Of a DNA stretch of 64,000 bases, positions 15,767-25,679 are shown one piece after another. Source of the DNA: Polyangium mundeleinium. Its GTDB lineage: Bacteria > Myxococcota_A > Polyangia > Polyangiales > Polyangiaceae. The stretch's first letter is position 1. Each line of letters opens with the position of its first letter. The position numbers and the translations under genes are program-made. The notes beneath the pieces are model-generated. The model saw only the letters and a program-made list of their open reading frames with translations. It had not been told where the DNA came from and ran no database searches. The DNA lies in NCBI RefSeq assembly GCF_028369105.1, contig NZ_JAQNDO010000001.1, positions 12,990,501 through 13,054,500 of the forward strand, read 5' to 3'.

Positions 15767-15790
15767 CGAGGGCGGGGATGTGCGCGAGAG

Positions 15791-16150
15791 CTCGGCGAAG
15801 CGCCAAGAGAGGGTCGGGCGAGGTCAGGTGGCGAAAGGCGGAGCGCCAAGCACGGGGGAGCAGAGCCAAGCGGGTGCTCGGCGCATCGCCACGGACAGTC
15901 CTTTTGCGCCAGGGTCGTGCTTGGCGAAGCGCCAAGGAGAGGTCGGGAGGGCCGGTCGCCGGGATGGCGAAGCGCCAAGGAGAGGTCGGAACAGGTCGAA
16001 CGGTGCTTGGCGCAGCGGCAAGGAGGCGTCCGACAACTCCCGGGTGCGCTTGGCGCAGCGGCAAGGAGGCGTCCGAAAACTCCCGGGTGTGCTTGGCGCA
16101 GCGCCAAGGAAGAGCGAGGGGCTCCCGATGTTGCTTGGCGATGCGCCAAG
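15791..16150. repeat. Nine 17-bp palindromes at a 43-bp period
   Basis: Nine copies of an interrupted palindrome, consensus CTTGGCG-(CA/AA/AT)(G)-CGCCAAG, begin at 15791, 15834, 15877, 15920, 15963, 16006, 16049, 16092 and 16134. Eight intervals are 43, 43, 43, 43, 43, 43, 43 and 42 bases. The copies at 15920, 16092 and 16134 are perfect 7-bp stems with 3-base loops; outer copies are degenerate. The 25-26-base intervening segments are related (many begin GAG-GG/GC) but differ. The period is not a multiple of three, so it is not coding. About four helical turns separate the copies, which would place them on one face of DNA. It fills the gap between the Shedu-regulator gene and the ClpB-like gene. 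Function unknown: protein-binding array, transcript barrier or simple tandem repeat. Confidence 0.9.
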
Positions 16151-16256
16151 CACATCCAGGGGCTCGGGCATGTCAGAACGAGGGACGACGGCGTAACCTA
16201 GAAGCACGACGCGCCGTCCCTTGCGCGCGCTGCTCACCTGGTGAGAAAAAGGACCC

Positions 16257-18890
16257 ATGGCCGACACCGAGGGCACAATCCACCTCGAACGCTTCACGAA
16301 CGACGCGAGGCAGATCGTCGCGGGCGCGCAAGCGCTCGCCGACGACCGGAAGCACGCCGAGGTCTCGCCGCTGCACCTGCTCGTGCGTTTGCTCGAACGC
16401 GATCGCGGCGTCCTCGATGTCTTCCGGCGCGCCGGCGCCGACCCGAACGAAACGATGAACCTCGCGGAGGCGGCCCTCCGGCGTCAGCCGAAATCGACGG
16501 GCGGCGTCTCGTACGTGGACGCCCGGCTGCTCGACCTGCTCAGCCGAGCCGAGCGCGAGGCCACGCGGGACAAGGCTCCCAACGTCGGCATCGAGCACCT
16601 CCTGCACGCGCTGGCGCAGGAGATCCGCGGGCCGGCGGGGGAGATCCTCTCGTCGTTCGGCATCAGCCCCGGCGCGTTCCGCCCGCACCTCGGCGCGCTC
16701 GCGGAGGGGGACGCGAAGGCGTCGGCGCCGCGGGATTCGGCCGCGGTGATCGTCACGAGCACAGCGGGGAGCGCCGAGGCGAATGGCTACACGCGGGACC
16801 TCGTGGCGGACGCGCGCAAGGGCCTCTTCGATCCGGTGATCGGCCGCGACGGCGAGGCGCGAAGGCTGCTGCAGATCCTGGAGCGCCGCTTCAAGAACCA
16901 TCCGCTCGTCGTGGGGGAGCCGGGCGTCGGCAAGTCAGCCTTGATCCGCGGGCTCGCGGATCGCATCGCGCGCGGCGACGTGCCGAGCAATCTCGCGGGC
17001 GCGCGCCTCTACGAGCTCGACACGGGCGCGCTCGTCGCGGGCGCGAAGCTGCGCGGCGAGATCGAGCAACGCCTCAAGGCCCTCATCGACAAGCTCCGCA
17101 GCGTGCAGGACGCCGAGACGATCCTCGTCGTCGAGGACATCGACGCGCTCTTCGGCCAGGGCGTGCAGGGCTCGGGTGTCGGCGATCTCCTGAAGCCGCT
17201 GCTCGCGCGGAGCGAGATCCGCATCCTCGCGACCACCACACCCGAGGGCATCCGCAAGCTGAACGAGCGTGACTCTTCGATCCTGCGGCGCTTCGCGGTG
17301 GTGAACATGGAGCCGCCGTCGATCGATCAGGCGACCGAGATCCTGCGCGGCGTCGCCACGAAGTACGAGGCGCACCACCGCGTGCGCATCGGCGAGAGCG
17401 CGATCCTCTCGGCCGTGAGCCTCGCCAAGCGTTACCTCTCCGATCGCGCGCTGCCGGACACGGCGGTGGATCTCCTCGACGAGACCAGCGCGCGCAAGCG
17501 CGTCGAGGTCGACGGCGTGCCTGCGGAGGTCGATGCGCTGAGCCGCCGCGTCGACGCGCTGAAGGCGCAGATCGCGGCGCTCGCGGACGACGAGGATCGG
17601 CTGAGCGTGCAGGCGCGGCAGCGGCTGGAGAAGGAGCTCGCCGAGGTCGAGCCGCGCGCGACGGAGATGCGCACGAACATCGCAGCGCGGCGCGGCGTCG
17701 TCGCGGCGGTGCAGTCGATCCGCAAGGAGCTCGCGGCGGCGAACGAGGCGCTCGCGACCGCGCAACGCGAGAAGAACTACGCGCGGATCGGCGAGATCGA
17801 GCACGTGACCTTGCCTGAGATCCGCCGCCGTCTGGAGACGGCCGAGGGGGCCGCGAAGCGCGAGGGCGCCGAGAGCGGCTCGAACATGGTCACGGAGAAC
17901 GACGTGGCCGGCACGCTCGCCGAGTGGACGGGCATCCCGGTCGCGAAGATGCTCGAAGGCGAGTCGGAGAAGCTGCTCAAGATGGAAGAGCGCCTCGCGC
18001 GCCGCGTGGTCGGCCAGGACGAGGCCGTGCGCGCCATCGCCCGCGCCGTACGCCGCGGCCGCGTGGGCCTCCGGGATCCGGGCAAGCCCATCGGCTCGTT
18101 CCTCTTCCTCGGGCCGAGCGGTGTCGGCAAGACCGAGCTCGCCAAGGCCCTCGCCGAGTTCTTGTTCGATGACGAGCAGGCGCTCACGCGGCTCGACATG
18201 AGCGAGTTCATGGAGCGGCACATGGCGCAGCGCCTCATCGGCGCGCCGCCCGGCTACGCCGACAGCGAGCAAGGCGGCTTCTTGACCGAGGCCGCGCGGC
18301 GCAGGCCCTACAGCGTCCTGCTCTTCGACGAGGTCGAGAAGGCGCACGCGGACGTGTTCAACCTGCTCCTCCAGATCCTCGACGACGGCCGTCTGACCGA
18401 CGGTCGTGGCAGGACGGCGGATTTTTCGAACACGGTCGTGATCATGACCTCGAACATCGGTTCGAAGCGGATCCTGGAGACCGACGCGAAGCTCTTCGGC
18501 ACCGAGGACGGGCGCGACGCGATCCGCGACGTGCTCTTCGAGGAGCTCAAGAACTTCTTCCGGCCGGAATTCTTGAACCGTATCGATGACATCGTCGTGT
18601 TCAAGGCCCTCACCAAGCAGGACCTGCGCGGCGTCGTCGACATCCAGCTCCGGCGGCTGGAGCGGCTCCTCGCGGATCGAGAGATTAAGGTGCAGCTCGA
18701 CGACGCGGCGAAGGACCTGCTCGTCGACCTCGGCTACGAGCCCTCGCTCGGCGCGCGCCCGCTCAAGCGCGCCATCCTGAAAGAGCTGCAAAACCCGCTC
18801 GCCGAAGCGATCCTCGCGGGCGGCTACGGCCCCGGCCAGATCGTGCACATCCGCGCGGCCGACGGTTCGTTCTCCTTCACCAAGGCGTGA
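16257..18890 (+). CDS. ClpB-like Hsp100 AAA+ unfoldase, divergent
   Basis: 877 residues with ClpB layout: Clp-N repeats at about 8-145, AAA-1 at about 185-400, a coiled-coil middle domain at about 415-530, AAA-2 at about 560-870. AAA-1 has Walker A GEPGVGKSA (220-228) and arginine fingers in ILRRF, but its Walker B reads ILVVEDID where ClpB has an FIDE motif, and the pore loop is AKLRG with Leu265 instead of the usual Tyr. AAA-2 is canonical: GPSGVGKTE at 619, LLFDEVEKAH, and pore loop GAPPGYADSEQGG keeping Tyr. ClpB disaggregates proteins with DnaK; the changes suggest a specialised paralogue. AAGGA precedes the ATG. No T6SS genes are near, so ClpV is unlikely. Whether it works with the upstream kinase/nuclease pair is not known. 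Confidence 0.85.
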   Translation: MADTEGTIHLERFTNDARQIVAGAQALADDRKHAEVSPLHLLVRLLERDRGVLDVFRRAGADPNETMNLAEAALRRQPKSTGGVSYVDARLLDLLSRAEREATRDKAPNVGIEHLLHALAQEIRGPAGEILSSFGISPGAFRPHLGALAEGDAKASAPRDSAAVIVTSTAGSAEANGYTRDLVADARKGLFDPVIGRDGEARRLLQILERRFKNHPLVVGEPGVGKSALIRGLADRIARGDVPSNLAGARLYELDTGALVAGAKLRGEIEQRLKALIDKLRSVQDAETILVVEDIDALFGQGVQGSGVGDLLKPLLARSEIRILATTTPEGIRKLNERDSSILRRFAVVNMEPPSIDQATEILRGVATKYEAHHRVRIGESAILSAVSLAKRYLSDRALPDTAVDLLDETSARKRVEVDGVPAEVDALSRRVDALKAQIAALADDEDRLSVQARQRLEKELAEVEPRATEMRTNIAARRGVVAAVQSIRKELAAANEALATAQREKNYARIGEIEHVTLPEIRRRLETAEGAAKREGAESGSNMVTENDVAGTLAEWTGIPVAKMLEGESEKLLKMEERLARRVVGQDEAVRAIARAVRRGRVGLRDPGKPIGSFLFLGPSGVGKTELAKALAEFLFDDEQALTRLDMSEFMERHMAQRLIGAPPGYADSEQGGFLTEAARRRPYSVLLFDEVEKAHADVFNLLLQILDDGRLTDGRGRTADFSNTVVIMTSNIGSKRILETDAKLFGTEDGRDAIRDVLFEELKNFFRPEFLNRIDDIVVFKALTKQDLRGVVDIQLRRLERLLADREIKVQLDDAAKDLLVDLGYEPSLGARPLKRAILKELQNPLAEAILAGGYGPGQIVHIRAADGSFSFTKA

Positions 18891-19024: not shown

Positions 19025-19570
19025 ATGCCTGGCAGGAACGTATCGCGGCGGTTGTTCGTGGGAGTGATGGGGGGCGGTGTGCTCGCCGCACCGGTTGTCG
19101 CCTCCGCGCGCCCGGAGACCACGTCCTCTGCAAAGAACGCGGCGCACAGCGAAAAACCGCTCGACGCGCCGACGCGCGAGAACGTCGCCAAGCTGCTGCA
19201 TCCGCTCGCGGCGGGATCACGCCTGGCGCGCTGGACGATCGTCCAGATCGATCCGGTCGTGAACGGGTGTGTGAGCATCAAGGTTCGGACGGACGATGGG
19301 CACACGTTCGACCTCGAGTTGCTCGCGCGCGACCGCACCGCGCTCGCGCAGCGGCCGCCCGCGGAGACGGAGCGGCACGCGATCTTCGTGGTGAACGGCG
19401 GCAACGGCTGGGCGACCACGCAGGAAGAGCTGGGGCTCGCGGCCATGACGCTCGCGCAGATCGTCGCGAAGAACGAGCGCGAGGTGCGCTTGTCCGGGCT
19501 GCTCACGCACGCCGAGCGCATCCAGAACCACGGCGACGCGCTCCTCGTTCCGGCGGAGGGACCGGGCTGA
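19025..19570 (+). CDS. Tat-exported protein at the head of the His-Xaa-Ser operon
   Basis: 181 residues, not a family I recognise. The N-terminus is a twin-arginine signal (NVSRRLFVGVMGGGVLAAPVVASA), so it should be exported folded, perhaps with a cofactor. The mature part contains a beta-rich core (ARWTIVQIDPVVNGCVSIKV, GHTFDLELLARD) and a conserved-looking IFVVNGGNGW. I chose the ATG at 19025 because AGGAGG sits seven bases upstream and because it places the Tat motif at the N-terminus; the frame stays open to 18986. It ends 4 bases before the radical SAM gene hxsC, so it belongs to the same transcript. It may act on or present the modified peptide outside the membrane; that is inference. 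Confidence 0.75.
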   Translation: MPGRNVSRRLFVGVMGGGVLAAPVVASARPETTSSAKNAAHSEKPLDAPTRENVAKLLHPLAAGSRLARWTIVQIDPVVNGCVSIKVRTDDGHTFDLELLARDRTALAQRPPAETERHAIFVVNGGNGWATTQEELGLAAMTLAQIVAKNEREVRLSGLLTHAERIQNHGDALLVPAEGPG

Positions 19571-19574
19571 ACAC

Positions 19575-20426
19575 ATGGCGACGGTCCTCTCCCTCGCTTG
19601 GACCTGCAACAATGCGTGCGTCTTCTGCGCGCAAGGGGAGCGGTCCGCCTCGCACGAACGCGAGGCCGAGGGGATGGATCTCGCGGCGCGCCTGCGCGTC
19701 GAGCAGGGCGACGTCGTGTTCGTGCAGGGCGGCGAGCCGACGCTCACGGACGATCTGCCCGCGGTGATTCGCGCTCTCGACGCGCGCGGCGCGCGCCGCA
19801 TCGTGGTGCAGACGAACGGCCGTCGCCTCGCGTATCGCGCGTATGCACGCGCCCTGCGCGAGGCTTCGAGCAAGCTCTCGCTCGACGTCTCGCTCCACGG
19901 CGCGACCGAGCCGATGCACGACTACCACACGCAGACGCCGGGCAGCTTCAAGCAGACCGCGCTCGGCGTGCGGCATGCGCGCGCCGAGGGGATCGAGGTC
20001 GGGACGACCACGGTGATCACGCGGTCGAACTACCGTCACCTCGCGGAGATCGTGCAGCTCTCGCGCGCGCTCGGGGCCCGCGCGGTGTACCTCGCGAGGG
20101 CGTCTCGTTTGGGCCGCGCGGCGCGCGCGGCGGATCGGATCGTCGCGCCGGAGGAGCTCGTGCGTCCGCAGCTCACGCGTGCGCTGGCGGAGGCATCGAG
20201 GCTCGGGATGGGCTGGCTCGCGAGCGAGAGGGCGAGTCATGCGGAGGTGCGCGATCTCTTCGCGGGCCTCGGCGAGGCGGAGATCGTGCCGGCGGAGGGG
20301 CTGGGTTCGTCGAGGACTTCGCCCGGCGTCGAGGTCACGGCCTCGGACAAGAACTTCGTGGACACGTCTCGGCTCGTCCGAGCGAAACCACCGAGCGTCA
20401 ACCGAAGCATTGCTTGGGAGCGGTGA
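19575..20426 (+). CDS. hxsC: Radical SAM protein, HxsC-like maturase of a His-Xaa-Ser system
   Basis: 283 residues. The radical SAM cluster motif is at the very N-terminus: WTCNNACVFC with Cys11, Cys15 and Cys18. GGEPTLTDDLP and VQTNGRRLAYR are the SAM-binding and beta-strand motifs, and LDVSLHGATEPMHDYHT and TTTVITRSNYRHL complete the barrel. No C-terminal Cys cluster is seen, so it probably carries one [4Fe-4S] cluster. Together with HxsB it is expected to modify the Ser-His-Gly repeat peptide encoded at 24816, by a chemistry not established for this family. The assignment as HxsC rests on co-occurrence with HxsB, HxsD-like and HxsA-like genes. Spacing: four bases after the Tat protein, contiguous with the next gene. 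Confidence 0.8.
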   Translation: MATVLSLAWTCNNACVFCAQGERSASHEREAEGMDLAARLRVEQGDVVFVQGGEPTLTDDLPAVIRALDARGARRIVVQTNGRRLAYRAYARALREASSKLSLDVSLHGATEPMHDYHTQTPGSFKQTALGVRHARAEGIEVGTTTVITRSNYRHLAEIVQLSRALGARAVYLARASRLGRAARAADRIVAPEELVRPQLTRALAEASRLGMGWLASERASHAEVRDLFAGLGEAEIVPAEGLGSSRTSPGVEVTASDKNFVDTSRLVRAKPPSVNRSIAWER

Positions 20427-22475
20427 GTGACAATGGCGAGCAACGTCAAAGCCAGTGACGAGCAGCGGGGCAAGCAGGTGCGACGGGTCGCCATTGCGGC
20501 GCTTCTGACGGTGATCGGCGGAGCCGCCGCATCGTCGTGCGCCGAGGGCGGGAGCGTGACGTCGGGTGGCAGCCTGACGAGCTCGAGCTCGAGCGGCTCT
20601 GGTGGAAGGGGCGGCGAGGGCGGCACGGGCGGCGACGGAGGCACGGGCGGCGTCGGCGGCACGGGCGGCGTCGGCGGCACGGGCGGCGTCGGTGGTGTCG
20701 GTGGTGTCGGTGGCGCGGGTGGCATGGGCGGCACGGGCGGCGCGGGCGGCCAGATGTGCGTCCCGCAGACCGAGGTCTGCGACGGCGTCGACAACAACTG
20801 CGACGGCGTCACCGACGAGGGCTGCGACTGCGTGACCGGCGTGAAGGAGGCCTGTTACACGGGCCCCGACGGCACGAAGGGCGTTGGCGTGTGCAAGGAA
20901 GGCCAGAGGACGTGCGACGCGTCCGGCAAGTGGGGCCCGTGCACGGATGAGGTCGTCCCGGCCGCGGTCGAGGCTTGCAACGGCTTCGACGACGACTGCG
21001 ACACCGAGGTCGACGAAGGAGAGTGTGACTGCGTCACGGGCGCGACGAAGGGCTGCTACACGGGCCCGCAGGGCACGCAGAACACCGGACTCTGCAAGCC
21101 TGGCTCGCAGACGTGTGACGCGAACGGGAAGTGGGGCCCGTGCCTGGGTGACACCACGCCGGCTCCCGAGATCTGCAACGGTCTCGACGATAGCTGTGAC
21201 GGCACGATCGACGAGGGCAATCCGGGCGGAGGCGATGCGTGCGTCGCGCCGGGCCTCGGCGAGTGCAAGAAGGGCACGCTGAACTGCATCAACGGCGCGG
21301 TGAAGTGCTCGCCCGCGCCCGTGCAGCCCGAGATCTGCGACGGCCTCGACAACAACTGCGACGGCAACACCGACGAGGGCAACCCCGGCGGCGGCATGCA
21401 GTGCATGACGGGCTTCTTGGGCCTGTGCAGCACGGGTTTGACCAAGTGCGACGGCGCGAACGGCGTGACGTGCATGCCGAACGTCGTCCCCGGCCAGCTC
21501 TCCGAGGCGTGCAACAACCTCGACGACGACTGCGACGGCATGGTCGACGACGCCATCCCGCAAGTCGGCATGGCGTGTACGAAGCCGGGTCAGCTCGGCG
21601 TCTGCCAGTTCGGCACCTTCGAGTGCCCCGCGGGCGCGTCGCAGCTCCTTTGCAACGCGCCCTTGCCCGGCACGGTCCAGGAGACGTGCAACGGCAAGGA
21701 CGACGACTGCAACGGCACGATCGACGATCCGGCCCTCGTGAACGGGCTGCCCTGCAACACGGCGTTCCCCGGCGTTTGCTCGACGGGCACCACGGTCTGC
21801 GTGGGCGGCAGCTCGTCGTGCAACCCGCAGGTCACGCCTGGGTCGCAGACCGAGATCTGCGACTCCAAGGACAACAACTGCAACGGGCAGGCGGACGAGA
21901 TGCAGCCGAACCCGGCGTGCACCGCGCAGAACCCGAATGCGCAGTTCGTCTCGGGTTGGTCGTGCACCGCGGGCCAGTGCCAGATCGTGCAGTGCAACGT
22001 CGGCTACGCGAACATCGACGGCGCGCCGGGCAACGGCTGCGAGTGCGCGACGGATCAGTACGCGAACCAGTGCGTGAGCGCGGGTGCGGTCAGCGTGCCG
22101 AAGGGCGGCACGGTGAACATGATCGGCAAGGTCGAGACCGCGAATACGAGCGACTGGCTCACGTTCAACTTCGTCGCGCCGGCGGGGCTTGGCCAGGCGT
22201 ACACGCCGAAGGTCCAGCTCGTGAACGACTCCGGTGGTCAGTACGGGATGGACGTGCTCTTCGACTGCAACACCGTCGCGACCTGCAACGACGGCGGCAC
22301 GGGGTCGGGGGCCACCGTGTGGGAGCTGAATTATCAGTACAACATGAGCGGCAGTCCCACAGGCCCCTGGTCCGACAGCAACCCGAAGATCGTGTCTGTC
22401 AAGGTTCGCGTGTATCGCAAGAACGGTACGCCGCCGACCTGCGATCAGTATACCGTGACCGCCACGAACCCGTGA
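20427..22475 (+). CDS. Exported protein with seven MopE-type CDG-DNNCDG repeats
   Basis: 682 residues. A signal/lipoprotein-like N-terminus (VAIAALLTVIGGAAASSCAE) is followed by a Gly-rich tract of GG-x repeats at about 45-108. Seven units of the putative metal-binding motif of MopE proteins follow (CDGVDNNCDGVTDEG, CNGFDDDCDTEVDEG, CNGLDDSCDGTIDEG, CDGLDNNCDGNTDEG, CNNLDDDCDGMVDDA, CNGKDDDCNGTIDDP, CDSKDNNCNGQADEM), rich in Cys and Asp and expected to bind divalent metal. The last 150 residues form a beta domain (DWLTFNFVAP, YTPKVQLVNDSGG). Start: GTG at 20427 abutting the hxsC stop; an ATG six bases later is an alternative. It is a surface lipoprotein embedded in the Hxs operon, possibly carrying or displaying its product. 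Confidence 0.8.
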   Translation: MTMASNVKASDEQRGKQVRRVAIAALLTVIGGAAASSCAEGGSVTSGGSLTSSSSSGSGGRGGEGGTGGDGGTGGVGGTGGVGGTGGVGGVGGVGGAGGMGGTGGAGGQMCVPQTEVCDGVDNNCDGVTDEGCDCVTGVKEACYTGPDGTKGVGVCKEGQRTCDASGKWGPCTDEVVPAAVEACNGFDDDCDTEVDEGECDCVTGATKGCYTGPQGTQNTGLCKPGSQTCDANGKWGPCLGDTTPAPEICNGLDDSCDGTIDEGNPGGGDACVAPGLGECKKGTLNCINGAVKCSPAPVQPEICDGLDNNCDGNTDEGNPGGGMQCMTGFLGLCSTGLTKCDGANGVTCMPNVVPGQLSEACNNLDDDCDGMVDDAIPQVGMACTKPGQLGVCQFGTFECPAGASQLLCNAPLPGTVQETCNGKDDDCNGTIDDPALVNGLPCNTAFPGVCSTGTTVCVGGSSSCNPQVTPGSQTEICDSKDNNCNGQADEMQPNPACTAQNPNAQFVSGWSCTAGQCQIVQCNVGYANIDGAPGNGCECATDQYANQCVSAGAVSVPKGGTVNMIGKVETANTSDWLTFNFVAPAGLGQAYTPKVQLVNDSGGQYGMDVLFDCNTVATCNDGGTGSGATVWELNYQYNMSGSPTGPWSDSNPKIVSVKVRVYRKNGTPPTCDQYTVTATNP

Positions 22476-22522
22476 GGCGTGCGGGACGCACCTCACGGTA
22501 CGTCATGGGGAGCGAAGGGCGA

Positions 22523-23014
22523 ATGAGCGACATGTCGTTTCACTTGGGAGAGGGCTCGGTCCGGATCGAGTTCGACGAGGGCCTGTACCCCAAGGATGCG
22601 ATCTATGGAGCGGCGTACGTCTTCATCGATCGCTGCTGGGTGCACCTCGATCGTGCGGGGGATCGTCGCATCCAGGTGACGCTCAAGTCGAAGAAGCCGG
22701 GCGCTGACACGCAGGTCTACGCGGGCGAGTTCCAGAACGAGCTGCTCGGGCAGGCGTGGCGCCTGCGGATCGTCGACGAGAACAAGAAGCTCGTCGAGTC
22801 GATCACGGCGCGCGCGCTCGGCGGTGCCGCGGGACCGCCTGGGCTCGACGAGCTGCTCGCGATGGACATCGGCGAGGAGACGGCCTTCGAGGATCCGCTC
22901 GGCATCGCGATGAGCTGGGAGGAGAAGTACAAGAAGAAGGGCAAGGGCGAAGGCGCGAAGGCCGAGGCGGAAGGCGCGTCGGGCGACGCCTCGGGGGGCG
23001 AGAAGGCGTCGTGA
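22523..23014 (+). CDS. HxsD-like protein of the His-Xaa-Ser system (longer copy)
   Basis: 163 residues, starting at the ATG at 22523 (two other ATGs lie at 22505 and 22532). Residues 5-90 fit the HxsD pattern: an early strand VRIEFDEGLYPKDAIYGAAY, FIDRCWVHLDR, a strand IQVTLKSKKPG and a helix FQNELLGQAWRLRIVDEN corresponding to the LLNDYxLRE signature. A charged Lys/Glu/Gly-rich tail follows (WEEKYKKKGKGEGAKAEAEG), absent from the small copy downstream. HxsD proteins are small adaptor-like components of unknown mechanism in Hxs operons; a role in binding the precursor leader for the radical SAM enzymes is plausible. Its stop overlaps the next start (GTGA). Confidence 0.72.
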   Translation: MSDMSFHLGEGSVRIEFDEGLYPKDAIYGAAYVFIDRCWVHLDRAGDRRIQVTLKSKKPGADTQVYAGEFQNELLGQAWRLRIVDENKKLVESITARALGGAAGPPGLDELLAMDIGEETAFEDPLGIAMSWEEKYKKKGKGEGAKAEAEGASGDASGGEKAS

Positions 23015-23253
23015 TCGAGCTCAGGTTTCATGAAGAGCTCTACGACGGCTTCGCGATCGACGAGGCCGTCAAGACGTACGCGGCGTACGCGACGGCGGAG
23101 CTCTCGCGGGATGGCGGCGCGTACGTCGTGAAGGTGACGGCGAAGCCCGAGGCCACGAGCGAAGGCATCGACGAGCGCGTGCTCTCCGCGGAGCTCGCGA
23201 ACTACGCGCTCGGCCTCACGATCGAACGCGCGCGGGCAGGGGGTGCGGCGTGA
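23011..23253 (+). CDS. HxsD-like protein (short copy)
   Basis: 80 residues from a GTG that overlaps the previous stop (GTGA); its own stop overlaps the next start in the same way. The fold signature parallels the upstream gene: IELRFHEELYDGFAIDEAVK, AELSRDGGAYVVKVTAK, and ELANYALGLTIER matching the LLNDYxLRE element. It is therefore an HxsD-type protein and the second in this operon. The two may form a heterodimer or serve the two radical SAM enzymes separately; nothing in the sequence decides this. Confidence 0.72.
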   Translation: MIELRFHEELYDGFAIDEAVKTYAAYATAELSRDGGAYVVKVTAKPEATSEGIDERVLSAELANYALGLTIERARAGGAA

Positions 23254-24764
23254 CGGGCCTCTCGACGCTCTTCACCGAGCTCGGCTCCACGGCGAAGGCG
23301 CCGACGGGCCTCGTGCCGTTCCGGTTCCGCGAGGTGAGCGGAGATATTTTGCTCACCAACTTCCTCGGCGACTGGCTCTTCGTCACGCAGGACGAGTTCC
23401 GCGCGCTCGCGCGTGGCGAGCTCGATTCCGCCTCGCCGCTCCACGACAAACTCGCGTCGCGGAACTTCCTCCGCGAGGGGTTCGATCAGGCGAAGGCCGC
23501 CGAGCGCATCGCGTACAAGAAGCGGTTCCTCAACTGGGGGCCGAACCTGCACATCGCGGTCGTCACGCTCCGCTGCAACGAGACGTGCGTCTACTGCCAC
23601 GCGAGCCGCGCGAACATGGACGCGGTCCACACCGACATGACGCCGGAGATCGGCGAGAAGGTCGTGGACCTGATGCTCCAGTCGACGTCGCCCTCGGTGA
23701 CGCTGGAGTTCCAGGGCGGTGAGCCGCTCGCGAACTTCCCGGTGATGAAGCACGTCATCGAGTACGCGCTCGCGCGGAACCGCGCCTACGGCAAGGGGCT
23801 CGAGTTCACGATGGTCTCGAACCTGGCCATGATGGACGCGGAGAAGCTCGCCTTCCTCGTCGATCGCAAGGTTCAGATCTGCACGAGCATCGACGGCCCG
23901 GAGCACCTGCACACGAAGCAGCGCATCCTCGCGGGCGGCAACGCGCACCGCGAGGCCGTGAAGTGGATCGAGCGCATCAACAAGGCCTACATCGACATCG
24001 GCCTCGACCCGACGCTCTACCATGTCGAAGCGCTGCTCACGACGACACGCGAGGCGCTCAAGTACCCGAAGGAGATCGTCGACACGTACGTCGGCCTCGG
24101 CTGCCGCGCGATCTTCCTCCGGCCCGTCGATCCCTTCGGCTTCGCGGGCAAGACCGCGCAGATCGTCGAGTACGACCGCGCCGCGTACAACGACTTCTAC
24201 CGCACCGCGGTCGAGCACATCCTCGATCTGAACCGGCGCGGCGAGCAGGTCCTCGAGCGGTACGGCTCGATCTTCCTCACGAAGATCCTCGGCGACGATG
24301 ATCCGAACTTCCTCGACATCCGCTCGCCGAGCGGCTCGGGGATCGGCGCTCTCGCCTACAACTACGACGGGAAGATCTTCTCCAGCGACGAGGGCCGGAT
24401 GATGTACGAGACCGGCGATCCTGCGTTCCAGATCGGCGACGTGTTCACCTCGTCGTATCGCTCGCTCATGAAGCACGAGACGGTGCGCGCGCTGGTGATG
24501 GCGTCGATCCGTGAGGCGCAGCCCGACTGCGTGAACTGCACGTACACGCCCTACTGCGGGGTGCAGCCCGAGCACAGCTACCGGACGCAGGGCACGATCT
24601 TCGGTAGGATGCGTGAGAGCACCTTGTGCGCCGTCCACAAGGGCATCCAGGATTTTCTCTTCGACAAACTGCGCGAGAACGACCCGAAGACGGTCGAGAT
24701 CCTCCGGCGCTGGACCACGGTCCGGGCGCGAACGCATTTCATCCACGCGTCGTCGGCATCTTGA
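23250..24764 (+). CDS. hxsB: Radical SAM maturase HxsB of the His-Xaa-Ser system
   Basis: 504 residues from a GTG overlapping the previous gene. The N-terminus (FRFREVSGDILLTNFLGDWL, FVTQDEFRALARGEL) resembles the PqqD/HxsB entry domain. The radical SAM motif is RCNETCVYCHASR with Cys109, Cys113 and Cys116; FQGGEPLANFP and CTSIDGPEHLHTKQR follow. The C-terminal region supplies extra cysteines (CVNCTYTPYCGVQPE and, later, LCAVH), as in SPASM-type radical SAM enzymes that bind auxiliary clusters. It is expected to modify the core of the precursor encoded 51 bases downstream. This is the best-supported member of the cluster. Confidence 0.88.
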   Translation: MTGLSTLFTELGSTAKAPTGLVPFRFREVSGDILLTNFLGDWLFVTQDEFRALARGELDSASPLHDKLASRNFLREGFDQAKAAERIAYKKRFLNWGPNLHIAVVTLRCNETCVYCHASRANMDAVHTDMTPEIGEKVVDLMLQSTSPSVTLEFQGGEPLANFPVMKHVIEYALARNRAYGKGLEFTMVSNLAMMDAEKLAFLVDRKVQICTSIDGPEHLHTKQRILAGGNAHREAVKWIERINKAYIDIGLDPTLYHVEALLTTTREALKYPKEIVDTYVGLGCRAIFLRPVDPFGFAGKTAQIVEYDRAAYNDFYRTAVEHILDLNRRGEQVLERYGSIFLTKILGDDDPNFLDIRSPSGSGIGALAYNYDGKIFSSDEGRMMYETGDPAFQIGDVFTSSYRSLMKHETVRALVMASIREAQPDCVNCTYTPYCGVQPEHSYRTQGTIFGRMRESTLCAVHKGIQDFLFDKLRENDPKTVEILRRWTTVRARTHFIHASSAS

Positions 24765-24815
24765 GGGCAAACGATCGACGCGGGCGCGACGGGACTTGGG
24801 ATCAGGGAGGCCACG

Positions 24816-25112
24816 ATGGCGAACAATGGAACAGGTGGGCTGCCGAGCTTCTCCCGCAAGCCGGGTGGCATGCTCTCCAAGACGGAGAGCGAGGTCGGCG
24901 CGAAGGCGAGCGAAGAGGCGGATCGCGCCGGCGTGATCGGCGATGACGCGGGTGGTGTGATCCCGGCGCAGCATTGCTCGCACGGCAGCCACGGCTCGCA
25001 CGGCAGCCACGGCTCGCACGGCAGCCACGGCTCGCACGGCAGCCACGGCTCGCACGGCAGCCACGGCTCGCACGGCAGCCACGGCTCGCACGGCAGCCAC
25101 GGCAGCTGGTAG
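24816..25112 (+). CDS. hxsA: HxsA-like precursor peptide with 14 Ser-His-Gly repeats
   Basis: 98 residues. AGGGAGG lies five bases before the ATG. Residues 1-53 form a polar leader (NGTGGLPSFSRKPGGMLSKT ...) with a GG at 46-47 and a Cys at 54. Residues 55-96 are 14 consecutive SHG triplets, read as His-Gly-Ser repeats in register with the His-Xaa-Ser signature, ending in Ser-Trp. It is the last gene of the operon, directly after hxsB. By analogy it is the substrate of the two radical SAM enzymes. Leader cleavage at the GG is possible, but no protease gene was found in the operon. Confidence 0.85.
   Translation: MANNGTGGLPSFSRKPGGMLSKTESEVGAKASEEADRAGVIGDDAGGVIPAQHCSHGSHGSHGSHGSHGSHGSHGSHGSHGSHGSHGSHGSHGSHGSW
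24978..25103 (+). repeat. Seven 18-bp units encoding (Ser-His-Gly)2 in the precursor
   Basis: The core of the precursor is a tandem repeat of TCGCACGGCAGCCACGGC, seven units with alternating TCG and AGC serine codons. Such a perfect array can expand and contract by slippage in steps of six residues. Confidence 0.92.
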
Positions 25113-25370: not shown

Positions 25371-25679
25371 ATGTACGCGGTCATCAAGACGGGCGGCAAG
25401 CAGTACAGGGTCAGCGAAGGCCAGGTGCTGCGCGTCGAGAAGCTGAGCGGCAACGCTGGCGACAAGGTTACGTTCAACGAAGTCCTGCTCGTCGGCGGCG
25501 AGGCCACCAAGATCGGCCAGCCGCTCGTTGCGGGTGCAAAGGTCGAGGCGCAGATCAATGCGCAGGATCGCGGCAAGAAGGTCGTGATCTTCAAGTTCCG
25601 GCGTCGGAAGAACTACCGCCGCAAGACGGGGCACCGGCAGCCGTACACCGAGCTCAAGATCACCGGCATCAGCGCCTAG
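25371..25679 (+). CDS. rplU: 50S ribosomal protein L21
   Basis: 102 residues matching L21 throughout: [18 protein letters not shown] at the start, [32 protein letters not shown] and [10 protein letters not shown] at the end. It binds 23S rRNA. It precedes rpmA by 11 bases, the universal arrangement; the obg GTPase gene that often follows is not here. Confidence 0.98.

Follow-up and report, generated by a model that had tools for sequence, protein, structure and literature searches.

An HxsA4-type radical SAM peptide operon in Polyangium mundeleinium and the Tat-signal protein that accompanies it

Introduction

The stretch of DNA considered in this study, referred to below as the window, consists of 64,000 nucleotides from the soil bacterium Polyangium mundeleinium. 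Positions 19025 to 25112 of the window contain seven genes in one compact cluster, all on the + strand, encoding among other things radical S-adenosylmethionine (SAM) enzymes and a small protein that ends in a run of Ser-His-Gly (SHG) triplets. The original prediction, made from the letters of the window, was that the cluster is a complete His-Xaa-Ser (Hxs) peptide-modification operon with unusual extra genes, two of which, a Tat-exported protein and a MopE-type lipoprotein, were taken to point to an exported and possibly metal-linked product. The locus thus raises a question in three parts: what kind of system it is, what is done to the triplets, and whether the proteins with export signals belong to the system or merely lie beside it.

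PMC9062424 credits Haft and Basu with the prediction, years ago, of Hxs systems from sequence, and itself terms HxsB and HxsC putative maturases. A search of the literature on HxsA through HxsD, HxsA4, His-Xaa-Ser and SHG repeats found no description of an Hxs product, a weak negative, as most subscription journals lay outside the search; to that extent the earlier statement that the chemistry and product are not established still holds. The type of system and its enzymes had already been catalogued. What this study adds is the Tat-signal partner, a proposal for the fold of HxsD, a conserved lipoprotein, and a variable second radical SAM protein around a constant core. The best overall explanation, which I find about as easy to believe as to doubt, is that of an HxsA4-type radical SAM system that would repeat one reaction along the array, with a Tat-signal protein as escort of the product.

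Results

Type of the system

The proteins of the operon were scanned against NCBIfam with its curated cut-offs, and Pfam was searched as well. Four proteins of the operon score above their NCBIfam cut-offs: HxsB, the radical SAM maturase (23250..24764, 504 aa; TIGR03978, 548.5 bits against a cut-off of 370, E 1.2e-164), HxsD (22523..23014, 163 aa; TIGR03976, 57.9 bits against 50), an HxsD-like paralogue (23011..23253, 80 aa; NF038315, 76.3 bits against 41) and an HxsA4-type precursor (24816..25112, 98 aa; NF038313, 111.8 bits against 55, E 2.2e-32). The second radical SAM protein (19575..20426, 283 aa) resembles HxsC and yet falls below the cut-offs of both HxsC (TIGR03977, 99.7 bits against 267.9) and HxsC4 (NF038332, 110.8 against 500), and was rejected as a member of either family. 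NF038332 is an "exception" model, named "rare", and I have not treated it as defining, since most A4 loci carry other radical SAM proteins. TIGR03979, the HxsA model, is not among the seven family matches of the precursor at E 1, and none of the seven TIGR03979 matches in the genome falls inside the window. Because four proteins pass their cut-offs and the second radical SAM protein passes neither of its two, the operon is, as judged by family membership, an HxsA4-type Hxs system with a different second radical SAM protein and not the canonical HxsABCD set.

The original prediction is therefore in need of amendment as regards completeness, in that the slot of HxsC is held by another protein. 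A search with the Hxs family models, which it had proposed as a check, recovers HxsB, HxsD and the HxsA4-type precursor but neither HxsC nor HxsA above cut-off. Its broader claim of an Hxs-family radical SAM operon is upheld by the family matches and by the recurrence of HxsA4 with HxsB in other genomes (together in 118 of 377), and its claim of two HxsD-like proteins by the scores given above. One of the conditions named as refuting it, that the repeat peptide and the enzymes do not go together in other genomes, is contradicted by the same count. The seven genes, their positions and their single strand are likewise borne out by the sequence. The genes had also been described as joined by GTGA overlaps and short gaps. 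Both exist, but the GTGA overlaps number just two (23011-23014 and 23250-23253), the remaining junctions being gaps of 4 nt (19570/19575), 0 nt (20426/20427), 47 nt (22475/22523) and 51 nt (24764/24816).

With other HxsA4-type systems the operon shares four components that score over the curated cut-offs, namely the precursor, HxsB, HxsD and the HxsD-like protein. It differs in having a short, separate subfamily of radical SAM protein instead of HxsC4; its Tat-signal protein and its lipoprotein match no NCBIfam model. The distance from canonical Hxs systems (HxsA, HxsB, HxsC and HxsD) is greater. These share the HxsB and HxsD families and the H-x-S repeats, but none of nine canonical loci was found to have the HxsD-like paralogue, the Tat-signal protein or a MopE-type protein, and canonical-type HxsB is just 35-38% identical to that of the window, whereas all other HxsB proteins in the order are at least 42% identical to it.

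The genome of P. mundeleinium (13.25 Mb) provides a comparison of its own. A second HxsB, at C1:1340014, has behind it a true HxsC, which scores 395 bits as opposed to the 99.7 of the radical SAM protein of the window, and is preceded by an H-x-S repeat protein that scores 50.9, below the HxsA cut-off of 121.65. This locus (C1:1332014-1349405, labeled L009/L040) is thus of the canonical type, with an H-x-S repeat protein, HxsD, HxsB and HxsC. A large protein with CxxCxGxG-like repeats adjoins it and five others of the nine canonical loci.

Two further observations concern HxsB loci in other genomes. A4-type HxsB loci are flanked by a protein without a name, some 400 aa long and in most cases encoded on the other strand (6 of 8 members, from rough gene calls: L049:10249-11448, L052:11185-12393, and also L072, L101, L103 and L108), and the two members that were scanned had no Pfam match at E 1. 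In addition, divergent HxsB proteins (228 and 226 bits, below cut-off) are found near a Tat-A4 pair in G083:C568 and G082:C30, which suggests a further HxsB subtype.

Occurrence of the Tat-signal protein

The first gene of the operon (19025..19570, + strand) encodes a protein of 181 aa with the signal SRRLFVG and a mature domain at approximately residues 45-175. It matches no NCBIfam or Pfam family at E 1, and five relatives likewise match none in Pfam. The predicted Tat motif is sound, for the twin arginine is invariant in 19 of 19 aligned sequences, the surrounding residues varying (NRRQFLSG in some relatives). A scan for a pattern of this protein in the contigs of 84,980 species found 18 relatives, from Polyangium, Minicystis, Byssovorax, Polyangiaceae, Myxococcaceae, Myxococcales, Myxococcota or delta-proteobacteria; as a single pattern was used, distant relatives may have been missed.

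In order to assess whether the protein follows the Hxs system, I examined two sets of genomes. The order was sampled by 183 genomes, the Tat-signal protein being called by profile A1 at E 1e-5 and HxsA4 by its cut-off. HxsB is present in 67 of these (66 over cut-off), six with the canonical type only and 61 with the A4 type; HxsA4 and the Tat-signal protein are present in 60 each. A4-type HxsB coincides with HxsA4 in 57 genomes (four with HxsB only, three with HxsA4 only) and with the Tat-signal protein also in 57 (four with HxsB only, three with the Tat-signal protein only), and the Tat-signal protein coincides with HxsA4 in 55, each occurring alone in five. One exception, G014, is accounted for by a contig that ends inside the array. 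The Tat-signal protein was found in none of the six genomes of the order with canonical HxsB only.

The phylum was represented by 377 genomes taken from a larger group (HxsB at E 1e-60, HxsA4 at E 1e-9, the Tat-signal protein at E 1e-6), which contain HxsB in 126, HxsA4 in 124 (114 over cut-off) and the Tat-signal protein in 98. HxsA4 and HxsB are shared by 118 genomes, with six having only HxsA4 and eight only HxsB. The Tat-signal protein shares 94 genomes with HxsB and 90 with HxsA4, leaving four and eight, respectively, in which it lacks the partner. Fisher values for these co-occurrences are tiny, but they ignore shared ancestry. I have little doubt that the Tat-signal protein is a regular partner of the HxsA4 system in this order; outside the order it is common but not universal. 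Rather than the unusual extra gene that it had been called, it is a regular partner of this type: of the genomes with HxsA4, 55 of 60 in the order and 90 of 124 in the phylum have it.

Gene order in relatives

Gene order was determined by profile searches of six-frame translations. Forty loci were fetched from outside the order: 20 selected for having the Tat-signal protein and HxsB on one contig (L167-L186), ten from genomes without the Tat-signal protein (L187-L196) and ten others. Nineteen of the first 20, all of other classes, have the Tat gene first, then HxsD, in many cases the HxsD-like gene, and HxsB; A4 comes next in 18 of them, and the nineteenth ends with its contig. The exception, L174 (of the same class), has the Tat gene past A4 and on the opposite strand. 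L182 goes further, its order being Tat-HxsD-HxsDlike-HxsB-A4[19]-Tat-A4[42].

Within the order linkage is looser. Of the 67 Tat genes, 11 have an A4 precursor at a distance of no more than 2 kb, 24 have HxsB at no more than 10 kb, and 29 were counted as near neither, although for one of these, in G013, there is an array some 4 kb off. Twenty of the 29 were fetched, and nine of these precede a group consisting of a radical SAM protein, HxsD and the HxsD-like protein; eight of the nine groups have the HxsC-like type of radical SAM protein seen in the window, and six of the eight have a MopE-type protein as well. There are thus three modules (Tat-radical SAM-MopE-HxsD-HxsD-like, HxsB, and A4), separate in some genera and joined as one operon in Polyangium. 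The correspondence between genomes with the Tat-signal protein and those with HxsB holds although 29 of the 67 Tat genes were counted as unlinked, and the co-occurrence of unlinked genes favors shared function over mere linkage.

The precursor and its array

The precursor consists of a 52-residue leader followed by HC(SHG)14SW. Its core (24972..25109) begins with His-Cys, continues with exactly 14 uninterrupted SHG units (24978-25103), as the original prediction had counted, and ends with Ser-Trp. The DNA contains a tandem repeat of period 18 with 100% matches (24976-25103). No export signal is visible in the protein.

The window and the loci of 66 relatives yielded 68 precursors with at least three consecutive SHG units. 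The survey admitted only frames that reach this minimum, and so the uniformity of the arrays is due in part to selection. The cores usually start with His-Cys, followed by 4 to 52 SHG units that are rarely interrupted (L108, L186 and L193); some have SHA or SHS as the first unit. All end in Ser-Trp or Gln-Trp but six (L102, L108, L175, L183, L185 and L202), most of which run into the end of a contig. The cysteine that precedes the array is replaced by Ala, Ser or Gly in L112, L114, L115, L174, L197, L201 and L202. A leader motif like LPSFxRxxxGxLSxxE is common to many A4 precursors. Some arrays are very long, with 41 units in L101, 52 in L103, 42 in L182 and about 46 in L186, as against 14 in Polyangium.

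Among six Polyangium genomes the 98-residue precursor is 100% identical, array length included, while the genes differ pairwise by 18-38 of 294 nt, mostly in the array, where serine codons alternate between TCG and AGC. The sequence of the precursor and its number of repeats are thus conserved even as the DNA changes.

Canonical arrays (HRSHSSHRSH) and A4 arrays (HGSHGS) have in common His and the Ser two residues on, while the middle residue differs, being R, S, A, V or Q in the canonical arrays. Chemistry centered on Gly was rejected on account of this variation. Cysteine thioethers were rejected as the repeated chemistry as well: the repeats contain no Cys, and the Cys before the array is substituted in some relatives. 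Because His and Ser are conserved, the middle residue varies and Cys is lacking, the reaction is probably on His, Ser or both.

Could the array be left unmodified, as a His-rich, collagen-like protein that binds metal? Pfam Collagen does match it (31.6 bits, cut-off 27.2), and the 15 histidines of the core could bind metal, but I consider this very improbable in view of the presence of HxsB in 118 of 124 HxsA4 genomes, the conservation of the leader among A4 precursors and the lack of conservation of the middle Gly in canonical arrays. As judged from its sequence context, the SHG array is very probably a substrate of radical SAM chemistry.

HxsB and the second radical SAM protein

HxsB has the three cysteines of the SAM cluster (C109, C113 and C116) and four more in its C-terminal part (C427, C430, C436 and C460). 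The latter are conserved in 19-20 of 20 sequences, C211 in 19 and C285 in 16, and with these extra cysteines HxsB could hold one auxiliary cluster or more. The second radical SAM protein, by contrast, has no cysteines beyond C11, C15 and C18 of the SAM cluster and hence none for an auxiliary iron-sulfur cluster.

The partners of HxsB vary. Approximately a dozen subgroups of second radical SAM proteins surround the constant HxsB, as defined by clustering of BLAST scores with score limits that I set, not by a tree. Ten subgroup proteins were scanned, yielding one true HxsC4 (606 bits, in a relative) and one true HxsC (in a canonical locus). At least one further radical SAM protein, and up to seven, was found in the fetched stretch of 52 of 71 A4-type loci of the order, as compared to exactly one in each of the nine canonical loci.

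The HxsD pair

HxsD was modeled from 15 sequences, with a mean pLDDT of 72.7 and values near 90 over residues 11-90. The top 26 Foldseek rows are all RNA polymerase chains (best E 1.1e-3, probability 1.00, target TM about 0.5), and I take their chain letters to denote the RPB11/AC19/Rpo11 subunit; the title of row 26 names Rpo3/Rpo11. The best Z score is 8.1 (rmsd 4.1, 94 residues aligned). The HxsD and HxsD-like models match each other's proteins with 28.1 and 13.8 bits, indicating that the two are paralogues. Since they are paralogues and HxsD is predicted to be RPB11-like, it is a fair guess from the model that they form a heterodimer like RPB3/RPB11. In the nine canonical loci, in none of which the paralogue was found, HxsD could form a homodimer.

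A4-type HxsD (22523-23014 in the window) has, in addition to the predicted RPB11-like fold, a strongly conserved C-terminal tail, FEDPLGIAMSWEEKY, missing from the canonical HxsD proteins with which it was compared. The tail is perhaps a docking motif.

The lipoprotein

The third gene (20427..22475, + strand, with a possible true start at the ATG at 20433) encodes a lipoprotein-like protein of 682 aa with a Gly-rich linker, seven stretches of the kind CDGxDNNCDGxxDEG (PF11617), in keeping with the MopE-type motifs previously noted, and a C-terminal domain. Orthologues across genera have a lipobox-like Cys, a Gly-rich linker, a common C-terminal domain and, as counted with a simple pattern, 3-7 motifs; of the 13 sequences compared, two had been given a start too far upstream and one is cut by its contig. 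The gene lies between a short or further radical SAM protein and HxsD in six Polyangium genomes and in G070, G069, G080, G103, G102, G088, G087, G093, G094 and G116; in G067 it stands ahead of HxsD. This makes 17 genomes from ten genera, all of one family.

MopE of Methylococcus capsulatus, a copper protein, shares the PF11617 motifs, and its copper site consists of two His and kynurenine, according to PMC3423442. The lipoprotein of the window has no histidine among its 682 residues (0-8 in relatives with a sound start), and such a site cannot form. Copper binding of the MopE type was therefore rejected, and with it the suggestion of a metal-linked product by way of this protein; the sole remaining hint of metal is the His-rich peptide itself. 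The Asp-rich motif seems to me more like a calcium loop.

In three genomes outside the order in which no Tat-signal protein was found (loci L192, L193 and L195), a protein with MopE motifs precedes HxsD-type and HxsB genes, perhaps as an independent association.

Flanking sequences

The operon is preceded by a ClpB-type gene at 16257-18890 and followed by two small genes at 25371 and 25691, whose translations resemble ribosomal proteins L21 and L27. A scan of the locus for promoters gave 0 sites, and one for terminators gave 4, against 2.7 expected. Directly upstream of the ClpB-type gene (window 15790-16160) lies a row of approximately eight near-palindromes, spaced 43 nt apart, of the form CTTGGCG-2 nt-GCGCCAAG or a variant of it. 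Exact matches in the rest of the genome are limited to two, at C1:10135693 and 10135736, themselves 43 nt apart.

Discussion

What might be done to the array?

I propose that HxsB, aided by the two HxsD proteins as an RPB11-like dimer, would move along the array and carry out the same reaction on each H-x-S unit, joining the imidazole of His to the beta-carbon of the Ser that lies two positions further along. Each unit would thereby gain a three-residue ring, 14 in a row, and the outcome would be a stiff, imidazole-rich rod. The second, variable radical SAM protein would add tailoring specific to the lineage. A link from His to the Ser beta-carbon in each unit, proposed by analogy, is a tentative choice to which I give somewhat less than an even chance. 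It is favored because links from His to a beta-carbon and from Phe to the beta-carbon of Ser have precedent: in the review PMC11002830, HaaB and ScaB are described as joining His C2 to the beta-carbon of Ala (in His-Ala-Ala) and MscB as joining Phe to the beta-carbon of Ser. The three-residue cyclophanes, or triceptides (made by HaaB, YhhB, MscB, XncB and OscB), are similar in that an aromatic residue would be paired with the residue two on, here in repeated H-G-S.

The likeness does not extend to the enzyme, and this is the first of several points that weigh against the explanation as a whole. Among the matches listed, to 25 of 58 families, HxsB scores just 43-49 bits against the cyclophane families AmcB, YhhB, GrrM and DynA, far below the cyclophane-maturase cut-offs of 310-450 (AmcB 49.3/425, YhhB 45.4/445, GrrM 43.9/310), as opposed to 83-95 bits against the nif11, QhpD, PapB, CcpM and SCIFF maturases. 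Its closest solved relatives, similar at a low level over the radical SAM and C-terminal regions, are 5wgg (E 1.1e-33, 119.8 bits), which I take to be CteB, a thioether-forming enzyme, and the anaerobic sulfatase-maturating enzyme 4k37 (E 1.2e-18, 70.2 bits); presumably their substrates differ from those of HxsB. The structural models give limited guidance: the RPB11 rows for HxsD are barely above the level that the tool calls common, an unrelated metallopeptidase reaching Z 7.8, and the model of the Tat-signal protein has no convincing fold match (best Foldseek E 0.13; Z 5.5, rmsd 4.5, 103 aligned). At the level of loci, 36 of the 71 A4-type loci of the order have no array in the fetched stretch and 23 no HxsD that was found (some stretches stop at contig ends), so that precursor and enzymes are often apart, and six of the 20 fetched unlinked Tat genes either have no array, HxsD or HxsC-like radical SAM protein nearby or stand with no other recognized gene at all. 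At the level of genomes, the Tat-signal protein is absent from 32 of the 126 HxsB genomes of the phylum and 34 of the 124 HxsA4 genomes, and must be dispensable in some. The MopE-type protein is found in just 15 of the 71 loci, and its motif is frequent in the genome of P. mundeleinium, with at least 116 matches in roughly 44 open frames (150 of 318 candidates scored). Finally, there is no recognized transporter gene in the operon, transporters and proteases elsewhere in the genome not having been searched for, and the binding of the Tat-signal protein to the peptide is a guess.

The alternative that survives best is other chemistry between His and Ser, an ether from the oxygen of Ser to His or to a backbone carbon, in the manner of bicyclostreptin, in place of a carbon-carbon bond. 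The review PMC11002830 has HghC joining the oxygen of Ser to the beta-carbon of the His three residues on, and HghB joining the His amide to the alpha-carbon of Gly. HxsB, among the matches listed, is nearer to maturases of the thioether type than to those of cyclophanes, which would suit an ether; the spacing, however, is off, since the residue three on from Ser in (SHG)n is Ser and not His, and I judge the ether unlikely, if worth bearing in mind.

Less likely again is a reaction of a different kind. Anaerobic sulfatase-maturating enzymes convert a single Ser or Cys to formylglycine, and HxsB might oxidize each Ser of the array in the same way, giving a poly-aldehyde that would react further, for example with His or with partner proteins. 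Such an enzyme is the second-best solved relative of HxsB, and the units conserve just two residues, of which Ser is one. The equal conservation of His is left unexplained, though, and the best solved relative is 5wgg, a thioether-forming enzyme, making formylglycine improbable.

Where might the product go?

The precursor has no visible export signal, the operon has no recognized transporter and the Tat-signal protein follows the system. For these reasons I propose that the Tat-signal protein, folded in the cytoplasm, would bind the finished peptide and take it over the inner membrane as a Tat passenger, a role that is possible but on the unlikely side. Some Tat substrates cross the membrane as dimers of which just one member bears the signal, according to PMC10924467. 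The lipoprotein might then present the peptide or anchor it at the envelope, a role I regard as more doubtful still.

The model of the Tat-signal protein, built from 19 sequences, has a mean pLDDT of 76.5, with values around 90 or higher for most of residues 50-170. It has a four-strand sheet and helices, and the failure to match a fold in the PDB does not show that the fold is new. A search of PDB sequences with the Tat profile gave a best E of 0.046, in the signal region, and a comparison with HxsD by hhalign gave no sign of relatedness (probability 0.2).

That the Tat-signal protein and the lipoprotein are chance neighbors of an ordinary Hxs operon would accord with the abundance of PF11617 motifs, the lack of a MopE-type protein in 56 of 71 loci and the lack of the Tat-signal protein in about a quarter of the HxsA4 genomes of the phylum, but is highly improbable, as 57 of the 60 genomes of the order with the Tat-signal protein carry A4-type HxsB, unlinked copies included, and the orthologue of the lipoprotein keeps its position across 17 genomes, which represent ten genera of one family. 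For the lipoprotein in particular, its conserved place and orthology make chance unlikely despite the abundance of the motif.

The boldest form of the proposal, in which a polymer-like peptide has all of its 4 to 52 His-Gly-Ser units cross-linked from His to Ser, a dedicated Tat escort, and an RPB11-like HxsD dimer as a platform for processivity, has only a small chance of being right in every part.

Significance

The exchange of HxsC-like radical SAM proteins around a constant HxsB constitutes a natural experiment in the tailoring of peptides. The locus itself offers a clean handle on the family, with a uniform substrate, a constant enzyme, a set of helpers and an unnamed partner whose role is open to test. 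As a regular component of the system, the Tat-signal protein hints at the destination of the product and may serve as bait in a pull-down. If the proposed escort is real, then Polyangium and its relatives would make a peptide natural product that is exported by the Tat route with an escort of its own, and if every unit is cross-linked, the product would be an imidazole-rich rod whose length is encoded in the gene, unlike any peptide natural product known to me.

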